Source: Acidihalobacter ferrooxydans (GTDB lineage Bacteria; Pseudomonadota; Gammaproteobacteria; DSM-5130; Acidihalobacteraceae). From it: a stretch of DNA of 64,000 nt. A program made the translations under genes and the position numbers. The DNA is taken from NCBI RefSeq assembly GCF_001975725.1, contig NZ_CP019434.1:1203041-1267040 (forward strand). The letters are read 5' to 3'. The notes under the pieces are model-generated. The model did no database searches. It worked only from the letters and a program-made list of their open reading frames with translations, and had not been told where the DNA came from. Of this stretch, positions 1 through 3,055 are shown in pieces. The first letter of the stretch is position 1, and the number at the start of each line of letters is the position of its first letter.

Positions 1-275
1 CCAGTGCGCTCATCGGAATCATCAGTCAAACATTGTTGCCGGATGTGCGCGGTGAAAAGCTGGTTCTTGCGCATGAGCTGATGTTGATGACGCCGGGCAT
101 TGCCAACTTGATTCGGCAGAACAAAATCCAGCAGCTTTCCGGAGCCATCGAAGAGGGGCGGTCCTCTGGCATGTGTACGCTTAACGATTCTTTGAACCGC
201 CTGGTCAGAGAGGGGCGCGTCAGCAAAACGGCTGCGTTTCGAGCCGCCTACACACGCGAGGGGCTGAACCTTTGA
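1..275 (+). CDS. PilT/DotB-type secretion ATPase, C-terminal fragment
   Basis: The reading frame is open from the window edge (codon boundary at base 3), so the N-terminus lies upstream. The visible ~90 residues resemble the C-terminal end of PilT/GspE-family ATPases: a conserved LLPDVRGEKLVLAHELM stretch, then TPGIANLIRQNK, then a Thr-Leu-Asn-Asp segment before the final helix. Such ATPases power pilus retraction or conjugation-type secretion. The Walker motifs fall outside the window. The stop codon overlaps the TTG start of the lytic transglycosylase, so the two are probably translationally coupled. Context (transglycosylase, pilin, recombinase) suggests the pilus module of an integrative element rather than the housekeeping pilT. 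Confidence 0.7.
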   Translation, partial: SALIGIISQTLLPDVRGEKLVLAHELMLMTPGIANLIRQNKIQQLSGAIEEGRSSGMCTLNDSLNRLVREGRVSKTAAFRAAYTREGLNL

Positions 276-742
276 AACGGGCGATAGTGATCGGAGCTTT
301 GTTGCTGACGCCCGTGTTAGCGCAGGCGCAGATGGCAAAACCAACCTGGCCGACCTACGCCTGTTTGATGCGTGCCGCACACGCCTATCACCTCAGCCCG
401 TGGGCCATCATCGGCATTATGAAAGCCGAAGGCGGCAAGCCGGGCCAAATCGTTCGCGATGCCAACGGCACTTTCGACATGGGGCCGATGCAGATCAACT
501 CGCTCTGGCTGCCGCGCCTGGCATCTCAAGGCATCACCGCGCAGGAGCTGGCCTCCAATGGCTGTTTGAACGTCAAGGTTGGAGCGGCCATTTTGCGGCT
601 CAACATCAACCAGGCCGGCGGCAATCTGGTCAAGGGAATCGGCTGGTATCACTCCCGCATACCCACACTGGCGCAGCAATACCGATTGCGCGTTTCACGG
701 CAGTTGGAACGCATCGCCAATACCCCATCGTCATCGAACTGA
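272..742 (+). CDS. Lytic transglycosylase (VirB1/R64 PilT-like)
   Basis: A 156-residue exported protein with a clear signal peptide (MKRAIVIGALLLTPVLAQAQ). The SLT-type transglycosylase fold follows: the catalytic glutamate is in the KAEGG motif near residue 53, followed by FDMGPMQIN and a C-terminal NVKVGAAIL. Lytic transglycosylases open peptidoglycan locally for a pilus or conjugation apparatus. The start is TTG and overlaps the upstream ATPase stop, which fixes it. Similar small transglycosylases belong to thin-pilus clusters of conjugative plasmids and ICEs. The function is well supported; the system it serves is inferred. Confidence 0.85.
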   Translation: MKRAIVIGALLLTPVLAQAQMAKPTWPTYACLMRAAHAYHLSPWAIIGIMKAEGGKPGQIVRDANGTFDMGPMQINSLWLPRLASQGITAQELASNGCLNVKVGAAILRLNINQAGGNLVKGIGWYHSRIPTLAQQYRLRVSRQLERIANTPSSSN

Positions 743-759
743 AGGACTGACTTTCAAAC

Positions 760-948
760 ATGGATGTAGCACGGAGCACGCGCGAAGACTTATGGACATT
801 GATTATCGATGCGGGCAAGGCCCCTTCCCTGGAAGACGCCGGGCGTATTTTGGCCGCCGGTCTTTCCGCGCTGGCTGTTGAAGAACCCCAAAACGACGTA
901 TTGCGCCAAGCGGCGCAGGATTGGTCATGGCTGATACCGCGAAAATAA
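760..948 (+). CDS. Small hypothetical protein of the integrative element
   Basis: A 62-residue protein with no motif I recognise. It is probably helical and acidic in the middle (EEPQNDVL). It starts 17 bp after the transglycosylase and overlaps the start of the HTH gene, which supports it as part of the same transcript. Its function is unknown. It could be a partner of the downstream HTH protein, but nothing in the sequence proves that. Confidence 0.45.
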   Translation: MDVARSTREDLWTLIIDAGKAPSLEDAGRILAAGLSALAVEEPQNDVLRQAAQDWSWLIPRK

Positions 949-1196
949 GTGACCTGCTCGAAGCACTGGACCGGTTGTCGCCGCGCATCCCTGTGCAAAT
1001 CGACTTGTGGTCGGTGCGCGAAATTGCCGCCTATCTCAAGCGCTCGGATGCAGTGGTACGTGACCGCATTGTAGCCATCCCGGATTTTCCGCCGGCGATT
1101 CGTCTGCCGACCGCCAGTGGTATTGGCCGCGGGCAACCACTATGGAAAGCGCGCGATGTTATCGCGTGGGCAGAGAACTATCAGGAACGCGATTAA
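927..1196 (+). CDS. AlpA/excisionase-like helix-turn-helix protein
   Basis: An 89-residue protein (ATG chosen at 927; an in-frame TTG lies at 921). The centre reads LWSVREIAAYLKRSDAVVRD, a MerR-like/excisionase winged-HTH with the WSVREIAAYL first helix. The tail GRGQPLWKARDVIAWAE matches AlpA-family proteins, where an arginine-rich loop precedes a W-x-x-x-D-V helix. Such proteins regulate integration or excision of mobile elements. The position between pilus-type genes and the integrase fits a directionality factor or element regulator, but the DNA target is not visible. Confidence 0.65.
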   Translation: MADTAKISDLLEALDRLSPRIPVQIDLWSVREIAAYLKRSDAVVRDRIVAIPDFPPAIRLPTASGIGRGQPLWKARDVIAWAENYQERD

Positions 1197-1203
1197 GGCA
1201 AAG

Positions 1204-1242
1204 GGTGACACTTTTGGTCACCTCATTGTCACTTTCTGACAA
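1204..1242. promoter_or_regulatory. Two tandem inverted repeats, candidate activator (PilR-type) sites
   Basis: Two perfect dyads lie upstream of the pilin sigma-54 promoter: GGTGAC/GTCACC with a 7-bp spacer (1204-1222) and TTGTCA/TGACAA with a 5-bp spacer (1226-1242). Every half-site contains GTCA or TGAC, giving repeated TGTC/GACA steps like those described for PilR enhancer sites. They sit about 50-90 bp upstream of the -24 element, a normal distance for an enhancer-binding protein. The protein assignment is inference. Confidence 0.5.
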
Positions 1243-1290
1243 TCAGCGAAGGAGGAAAAAAACAAAATACAACATCAAGCAACATATCTC

Positions 1291-1306
1291 TGGTACGGAA
1301 AATGCA
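1291..1306 (+). promoter_or_regulatory. Sigma-54 (RpoN) promoter of the pilin gene
   Basis: TGGTACG followed by GAAA and ATGCA matches the -24/-12 consensus TGGYACG-N4-TTGCW with one mismatch. The GG and GC dinucleotides are separated by the required 10 bp. Transcription would begin near 1317, giving a leader of about 35 nt before the pilin ATG with an AGAGG ribosome-binding site. RpoN control is typical of major type IV pilins. Confidence 0.8.
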
Positions 1307-1350
1307 ATAAATGAGTTTCTGTCACTCAACGTTAATTAAGAGGTTGTTCC

Positions 1351-1785
1351 ATGAAGAAAAATATGCAGCAGGGTTTCACCCTGATCGAACTCATGATTGT
1401 GGTCGCCATCATCGGCATCCTGGCCGCCATCGCGATCCCGATGTACTCGAACTACGTGGTCAAGTCCCAGGCGTCTGCCGGCCCGGTGGTCTCATCCGGC
1501 GCGCGCACCGCCGTCGCCGAGTGGTATTCGACCAAAGGCACTTTCACCGGGGCCAGCAATGCTTCATTGGGTCTGGCGTCACCGTCAAGTATTTCGGGCA
1601 AATATGTCAGCTCCGTGTCTGTCACGAACGGCAAGATCACCGTCACCTACAGCGGTAACACCAATACGGCGCTGTCCGGTAAAACGCTGGTCGAATCACC
1701 GTCTTCCAGCAATGGTTCGGTGCAGTGGTCGTGTACGGGTAGCACGGTCAACACGGCCAAGTACCTGGGATCGTTCTGCCAGTAA
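1351..1785 (+). CDS. pilA: Type IV pilin (PilA-like major prepilin)
   Basis: A 144-residue prepilin with a short leader (MKKNMQQG), a class III cleavage site between Gly8 and Phe9, and the hallmark [20 protein letters not shown] helix with Glu at mature position 5. The globular part is Ser/Thr/Gly-rich and ends in a disulfide loop (Cys128 and Cys143), as in type IVa pilins. A sigma-54 promoter and possible PilR sites lie upstream and a strong terminator follows, so it is a monocistronic unit. It sits next to an integrase inside the mobile element. It could be a pilus subunit for attachment, conjugation or DNA uptake. Confidence 0.9.
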
Positions 1786-1820
1786 AAAATGCCCCGCTAA
1801 GAAAAAAGACTATGTGCTTG

Positions 1821-1850
1821 ACCGCTATCCGTTTGGATGGCGGTTTTTTT
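1821..1850 (+). terminator. Rho-independent terminator after the pilin gene
   Basis: CCGCTATCC, a GTTT loop and GGATGGCGG form a 9-bp stem with one G-U pair, followed directly by seven T residues. It lies 36 bp after the pilin stop and just before the convergent integrase stop. Confidence 0.85.
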
Positions 1851-2859
1851 ATGCCAATTTATCGGCCAGATCCTCTACCTTGGGCGCGTAGTAGACGTTC
1901 TGCAGGATACGCAGGTCGCGGTGTCCACTGATACGCGCCAGCTCCATGACGTTGAAGACCTTCGAAAGCCGGGTGAGCGCTTCACGCCGCGTGTCGTGGA
2001 AATGCAAGCTGCGGATGTCCTGAAGAGGACCGTCGACGGCCAGACGCTCGCGAGCTCTTCTGAACAGGGCATCGAGCGAGGTGCTGGGCAGATTGAATAC
2101 ATGCGGGTGCTTGCCTGTGACCGGCCGCAGTTGTTCGATGATGCGCCGGGCTTGCGTCGAGAGCGGCACATCACGAGGATGGCCGTTTTTCGTCATTGGC
2201 AAATGCACATAGCGCTCATGCACATCATCCCATTGCAAGGCGCAAATCTCCCCGGCGCGCATCGCGGTTTCGCAGGCGAACAGGAAGGCGGCGCCAACAC
2301 GCGCCATGGCGGTCTCCGGAGCCCGGTCGGGCGAGTACCCCATCGTGAACAGCAACGCCTCGATTTCTTCCTCAGTCGGGCGCCGCGTGCGGGCCTGGGG
2401 AGACGCGGGCCGGCGCACGTCGGCCATCGGGTTGGTTTTGAGCCATCCCCATTCCTTGCGAGCGATTGTGCAGGCGTGGGAAAGAATGGTCATCTCTCGA
2501 ATGACGGTGCCGGCGCTCACTTGCTCAAGTCGCCGTTCCCGCCAGGCGGACAGGTCGGACGGGCGTAAATCCCGAAGCGGGATTTTGGCAATATCGGTGT
2601 CGCGCAAAATGACCTGGATCATCATGCGTTCCCGCCGGGCGCCGCGCTTACGAACCGAGACCTCATCGGCGTACCGATGCATCAGGTCTCCGAAGGATTT
2701 GTCAGGGATGTCCGCCGTGCTCTGCGTGTGGATCTTCGCTTCGGTCTGCGCCGCCCAAGCCTGGGCCTCTCGTTTGGTGGCGAAGGTCGCCGAGCGGCGC
2801 TGACCCTTCACGAACAATTCGGCTCGCCAGCGGGTTCCCCGTTTGCGGAAGGTTGCCAT
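1849..2859 (-). CDS. int: Tyrosine recombinase / integrase (Rci/HP1-like)
   Basis: A 336-residue site-specific recombinase. The N-terminus has an AP2-like arm-binding region (GTRWRAELFVKGQRRSATF) followed by a SAM-like core-binding domain (about residues 50-150). The catalytic domain shows Arg in ETAMRAGEI (about residue 201), HDTRR (about 291), His in SGHRDL (313) and Tyr in NVYYA (323). The TKNGHPRDVPLS strand resembles the R64 Rci shufflon recombinase and P2/HP1 integrases. Transcribed toward the pilin, with its promoter side facing the truncated DUF2062 gene, it sits at the element's end as integrases normally do. It most likely drives integration at the dyad in 2945-2967. Confidence 0.9.
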   Translation of the reverse strand: MATFRKRGTRWRAELFVKGQRRSATFATKREAQAWAAQTEAKIHTQSTADIPDKSFGDLMHRYADEVSVRKRGARRERMMIQVILRDTDIAKIPLRDLRPSDLSAWRERRLEQVSAGTVIREMTILSHACTIARKEWGWLKTNPMADVRRPASPQARTRRPTEEEIEALLFTMGYSPDRAPETAMARVGAAFLFACETAMRAGEICALQWDDVHERYVHLPMTKNGHPRDVPLSTQARRIIEQLRPVTGKHPHVFNLPSTSLDALFRRARERLAVDGPLQDIRSLHFHDTRREALTRLSKVFNVMELARISGHRDLRILQNVYYAPKVEDLADKLA

Positions 2860-2905
2860 AGGCTATCTCTATGCGTGTTACGCCAGAGCCAAGCATGCGC
2901 CAAAA

Positions 2906-3055
2906 TTACGCCATTTGCAAATAAGCTGCTGTTTTATAGTGTTGACGACCCCACAGGCTGGGGTCGTGCAGCAACGTGCCCAACCAACGCAGCGAACGGT
3001 GCTCGCGGATGCTGCGCGGGTCGGGAAGCAGGCGCCGAATCAGGTGTTTGGCCAT
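2906..3055 (-). pseudogene. DUF2062 gene truncated by element integration (N-terminal remnant)
   Basis: Read on the minus strand from the ATG at 3055, the frame gives MAKHLIRRLLPDPRSIREHR, then SLRWLGTLLHDPSLWGR. This is the conserved N-terminus of DUF2062 membrane proteins, in which HRSLRxLGxLLHDPxLW is followed by NRRSVA and membrane helices. Here the family sequence stops at LWG, and a dozen unrelated residues lead to a stop at 2906. The break coincides with a perfect dyad at 2945-2967. In Pseudomonas a DUF2062 gene diverges from comEC, exactly as here. I infer that the gene was cut by the integrating element; its 3' part should lie at the element's other end, outside this window. Confidence 0.75.
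2945..2967. other. Candidate att core site (8-7-8 bp perfect dyad)
   Basis: The arms ACGACCCC and GGGGTCGT flank a 7-bp centre. This is the geometry of a tyrosine-recombinase core, with two inverted binding arms and a 6-8 bp crossover region. It lies where DUF2062 homology ends and 86 bp from the integrase start codon. No T-run follows on either strand, so it is unlikely to be a terminator. Confidence 0.6.

Follow-up and report, generated by a model that had tools for sequence, protein, structure and literature searches.

The locus

The window analysed here is the whole 64-kb stretch G000:C1:1203041-1267040 of a single-contig 3.45-Mb genome (100% estimated completeness). At its left-hand end a conjugation gene, a pilin gene and a tyrosine recombinase gene are followed by a perfect inverted repeat and the beginning of a DUF2062 gene. 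Features are given below with window coordinates and strand where one applies.

1..2959: right-hand end of a 146,847-bp integrative conjugative element (ICE; element A), the remainder of which (G000:C1:1059146-1203040) lies left of the window
272..742 (+): TrbN-like lytic transglycosylase, a conjugation accessory (family match)
921..1196 (+): 91-aa ORF, possibly excisionase-like (a guess; no family match)
1351..1785 (+): type IV pilin of element A (family match)
1849..2859 (-): tyrosine recombinase (integrase), 336 aa (Phage_integrase, 3.8e-19)
2920..2928 (+): possible arm-type integrase site AATAAGCTG, with related repeats near the other end of the element
2945..2967: attR, where the right-hand end of the element meets the host; a perfect 8-7-8 dyad made of element half-site, overlap and host half-site
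2947..2952 (+): element half-site GACCCC at the integrase end; the same half-site ends a sibling element, B, elsewhere
2953..2959 (+): ACAGGCT, the putative 7-bp overlap, repeated unchanged at the left junction (G000:C1:1059146-1059152)
2960..2965 (+): half-site contributed by the host, GGGGTC (GACCCC on the opposite strand), within DUF2062
2953..3055 (-): 5' fragment of the split gene, holding roughly the first 35 codons of DUF2062; its 3' part lies 146.8 kb to the left

A DUF2062 gene split by 146,847 bp

As a sequence-only reading of the window had noted, the minus-strand frame from 3055 encodes the N-terminus of a DUF2062 protein as far as DPSLW (MAKHLIRRLLPDPRSIREHRSLRWLGTLLHDPSLW) and then departs from it; that reading proposed an integrative element inside the gene, bounded at 2945-2967. 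A DUF2062 profile search of the genome located the missing C-terminal part on the minus strand of the same chromosome (G000:C1:1058757-1059152), where it begins ..SLWHLNRRSISGG, exactly at the point at which the window copy stops. A total of 146,847 bp separates the two parts; removing it, from one overlap to the other, brings them together in frame and restores a 177-aa DUF2062 reading frame, cut by the insert after codon 35. The rejoined protein is 59% identical to that of a congener (G001), whose orthologue is uninterrupted, carries no insert and reads HDPNLWHFNRRS at the insertion point. Both junctions, the rejoined gene and an uninterrupted orthologue together document flanking att sites and an empty site, and the proposed element and its boundary are borne out. 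The host gene is inactivated, as had also been predicted, since it is split without restoration and the genome has just one further match to the DUF2062 domain, a distant paralogue in an open frame of 288 aa (40.6 bits). Within the literature collection searched, no paper mentions DUF2062 together with integrative conjugative elements, or together with an integrase and insertion.

Gene content of element A

The recombinase adjoining the junction belongs to the Phage_integrase family and carries R-K-HxxR-H-Y-like motifs (TAMRAGE, TKNG, HDTRRE, SGHRDL, NVYYAP), in agreement with the sequence-only reading; its start codon is roughly 90 bp away from the overlap in attR, placing the recombinase at one end of the element. 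The insert also encodes a relaxase (MobH, 260.9 bits against a curated cut-off of 200) and a coupling protein (SXT_TraD, 516.7 bits against 366), together with a P-type type IV secretion system (T4SS) cluster comprising VirB4/TrbE, TrbL/VirB6, VirB8, CagX/VirB9 and TrbI/VirB10 (Pfam and NCBIfam). By this gene content the insert is an ICE, predicted to be self-transmissible. The MobH relaxase and SXT-family TraD of element A, as well as a MobI-like protein of element B, recall the SXT/R391 and IncA/C mobile elements, whereas the T4SS core of element A matches P-type TrbE/TrbG/TrbI/TrbL, and its integrase and insertion site differ from theirs.

Element A also holds a ribonucleotide reductase small-chain gene (G000:C1:1157390-1159432), with a 1317-aa ORF just downstream, and three 431-aa ORFs sharing an N-terminal sequence (MPNRKVTYRLYPNTEQEARLQDMLG...; G000:C1 1115366, 1170719 and 1180136), which are probably copies of an insertion-sequence gene.

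Architecture of the two junctions

The right-hand dyad reads ACGACCCC-ACAGGCT-GGGGTCGT and is perfect in an 8-7-8 arrangement, as originally described, or 9-5-9 if the loop-closing A-T pair is counted. Read along the plus strand, the host gives way to the element at the left junction as GGTGCC-ACAGGCT-GGCACC, and the element to the host at the right junction as GACCCC-ACAGGCT-GGGGTC. The arms are therefore unlike at the two ends (GGTGCC/GGCACC and GACCCC/GGGGTC), and the junctions have 11 bp in common (CC-ACAGGCT-GG). A conventional long att repeat was considered for element A and rejected, as the parallel direct repeat covers only these 11 bp. The central ACAGGCT is host-native, specifying codons S-L-W of DUF2062. 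The sequence-only reading had taken the dyad for the att core and suggested a search for a second copy: the 7-bp centre does recur beside a DUF2062 fragment, but the full 23-bp dyad has no second copy in the genome. The dyad is instead a hybrid site, made of one element half-site, the 7-bp overlap and one host half-site, and not a pre-existing att core.

The 64-kb window contains eight dyads with 9-bp arms, where a shuffled sequence has about 3.7, which is only a modest enrichment; within the 196 bp around the junction, however, so good a dyad is rare, arising in 29 of 3000 shuffles. Because such dyads are not rare across the window, it is the second junction, rather than the dyad by itself, that provides the evidence for integration. 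Repeats related to the possible arm-type site AATAAGCTG (AAYAAGTTA, AAGAAGTTG and AAGAAGCTG) occur at most 125 bp from the other end of the element.

Sibling elements in the same genome

Four relatives of the integrase occur elsewhere in this genome: full copies in elements B (96% identical), C (92%) and D (90%), and a partial copy in element E (64% identical over the first 177 aa). Three of these lie at tRNA 3' ends, namely tRNA-Leu(CAA) for C, tRNA-Arg(CCT) for D and tRNA-Asn(GTT) for E. The second end of E was predicted from the displaced tRNA 3' end in its integrase-end flank and afterwards located, giving direct repeats of the tRNA-Asn(GTT) 3' end (CGAGTCC-GCGCTGG-GGAGCCA) 28.9 kb apart. 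For C and D, a search over about 145-150 kb revealed no distal end, and their cores have no second exact copy anywhere in the genome.

Element B (79,099 bp) lies inside an AraC-type regulator gene, which likewise rejoins in frame. Its junctions, oriented as in A, are GTTGCC-TATTGAT-GGCACC and GACCCC-TATTGAT-GGAGAC. Thus A and B have both element half-sites in common, and their element ends are 88-96% identical, while their 7-bp overlaps are unrelated, agreeing at two of seven positions; in each element the overlap is the same at both ends and native to the host gene. The MobI-like protein noted above is encoded within G000:C1:2577009-2656114; the few B proteins searched included no recognisable T4SS component. 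A 1.4-kb stretch of ICE A (1131500-1132908) is related to B and contains the same ORF. Element B may be mobilised by A.

A tRNA-end signature

Elements A and B both have half-sites of the form CGACCCC-N7-GGCACCA, which is the T-arm/acceptor layout of a tRNA. A survey of 369 gammaproteobacterial genomes gave 20 occurrences of the pattern TTCGACCCC-N7-GGCACCA; 16 fall in complete tRNA-Leu or tRNA-Arg genes, and the other four in tRNA-Leu 3' ends that are split or truncated. The genome studied here has no exact copy; its tRNA genes contain near matches. The rejoined DUF2062 gene, read on its own strand, contains CGACCCC-AGCCTGT-GGCACC, an exact match to both half-sites, and we infer that it carries the tRNA-Leu/Arg 3'-end signature by chance. 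The bases ATTAACG come after GGCACC at the distal ends of A and B and also after an unoccupied tRNA-Leu(UAA) gene (G000:C1:2070340), an agreement reflecting either chance or an excision scar.

Integrase relatives in named metagenome-assembled genomes (MAGs), with 64-74% identity across the matched part, also adjoin tRNA-Leu(UAA), and of the six relatives identified in named genomes not one is inserted in DUF2062. In one of them (G059:C48, about 1080-1523) the tRNA-Leu(UAA) gene is split, with the integrase relative at its 3' end; the interruption is a probable group I intron, judging by a match of 45.1 bits that falls under the family's gathering score of 50. An earlier assignment of such flanks to rnpB was rejected in favour of this split tRNA. 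The distal end of the G004 relative was not found within about 180 kb. No other strain or relative proved to have element A at a tRNA; the closest relatives from outside this genome are 67% identical.

By its close relatives (C, D and E in this genome, and those in MAGs) the integrase belongs to a group targeting tRNA 3' ends, while element A itself, rather than sitting in a tRNA gene and restoring it, splits DUF2062. The original contrast between this site, early in a protein gene, and the usual targets of such integrases can therefore be refined: the site is most likely a secondary or mimic site for an integrase of the tRNA-end group, and not a different kind of target.

Half-site polarity

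When element and host half-sites are aligned in inverted polarity, they match at 12/12 positions in A and 9/12 in B; parallel alignment gives 6/12 for both. Against background, the probability of nine or more matches is 0.0009 per site, and 12 was reached by no background site. Because the alignment in A is inverted, both of its junctions are palindromic rather than direct repeats. The half-sites of B probably align inverted too, and those of E are parallel, giving its direct repeat.

Probable secondary-site integration at a tRNA mimic

The sequences of the two junctions place an ICE inside DUF2062 with the same putative 7-bp overlap at each end. The explanation we favour, with a probability of roughly 0.85, is secondary-site integration of a tRNA-end-targeting ICE at a coding-sequence mimic. 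An integrase of the group that uses the tRNA T-arm/acceptor end (TTCGANNCC-N7-GGCACCA) would have entered a host whose tRNAs lack an exact match to the half-sites CGACCCC...GGCACCA, and would have recombined instead at the chance mimic in DUF2062. If the integrase binds the two half-sites symmetrically, half-site polarity would not set orientation, and the element could have gone in the opposite way round from an insertion at a tRNA. Every junction would then pair a host half-site with an identical element half-site, yielding a palindrome. Counting against this explanation are the host-native 7-mers present at both junctions of A and of B, where overlaps that differed beforehand should have left different ones, the lack of any known strain or relative with the element at a tRNA, and the missing distal ends of C and D.

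A less probable account, which we consider unlikely, is that DUF2062 is a proper, evolved attachment site, possibly with the integrity of the gene regulated through its restoration on excision. The attB and attP half-sites do match at 12/12 positions (14/16 with longer arms), and insertion early in a gene has precedent, other integrases inserting at the 5' end of dusA (PMC4482086) and SXT being cited as inserting in prfC (in PMC2297512). However, sibling B, whose attP half-sites are identical, is inserted in the unrelated AraC-type gene; the half-sites are those of tRNA-Leu/Arg; the match is inverted, whereas co-evolved attP and attB sites would be expected to produce a direct repeat as in E; and DUF2062 is not the site of any of the six relatives in named genomes. 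Far less probable is an origin of the junctions in homologous recombination, deletion or assembly error. Nothing speaks for it directly, although the region contains transposase genes and other repeats, and it is at odds with the completeness of the single-contig assembly, with the in-frame rejoining of both A and B in the same CC-N7-GG geometry beside sibling integrases, and with the tRNA direct repeat of E. That the dyad is an independent terminator or operator hairpin, as its perfect 9-5-9 form and its position upstream of the integrase might suggest, is the least credible alternative: half of it codes for DUF2062 once the gene is rejoined, and B lacks such a dyad at the same place despite a conserved element side.

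Comparison with known systems

Secondary-site integration of this sort is an event of a known kind, of which a few details are unusual. ICEBs1 of Bacillus subtilis similarly combines a primary tRNA-Leu site and short inverted repeats around a 7-bp spacer with secondary insertions in protein genes, in either orientation, one gene having been hit both ways (PMC3715440). The half-sites of element A, in contrast, match almost perfectly but inverted. Moreover, in ICEBs1 a mismatched spacer, as in mmsA, leads to different spacers at the two ends (PMC3715440); this expectation does not hold for A or B, each of which has the host's own 7 bp at both junctions. SGI1 resembles element A in its tyrosine integrase, its 7-bp overlap within imperfect inverted core repeats and its use of a second chromosomal site, but its sites share most of an 18-bp core (PMC2297512), whereas those of A and B share half-sites only. 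Unrelated crossover regions may be tolerated by Tn916 and Tn1549, whose spacers vary among copies (PMC5871717), and the element A group may by analogy tolerate heterology; Tn1549, however, targets TTTT-n6-AAAA-like sites (PMC5871717) rather than tRNA 3' ends.

What is unusual, then, is that the overlaps of A and B are unrelated and each host-native at both ends. Either they matched the target before insertion or they were converted to host sequence later. Rewriting of the overlap at each insertion is plausible, given that such similar element ends flank such dissimilar overlaps. We raise only tentatively, and think it rather doubtful, that the integrase selects targets by half-sites alone, ignoring overlap and polarity and leaving the target's 7 bp at both junctions. 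If so, the element's overlap would be rewritten with every insertion, and a tRNA-specific ICE could come to occupy coding sequences resembling the ends of tRNA genes. With five sibling elements or remnants at five sites, three in tRNA genes and two in protein genes, this one genome offers a compact natural experiment on the escape of a tRNA-specific integrase into protein genes, and the base-pair maps of the A, B and E att sites make rules of half-site, overlap and orientation directly testable.

More distantly related integrases (CP109682, PAN70, TRS1 and G004; 42-56% identical) are preceded by near-palindromic cores, among them GGTGCC-TCGGGAG-GGCACC and GGTGCG-CTCGGCG-GGCACT, the second of which overlaps the sequence annotated as a putative attP in phage TRS1.
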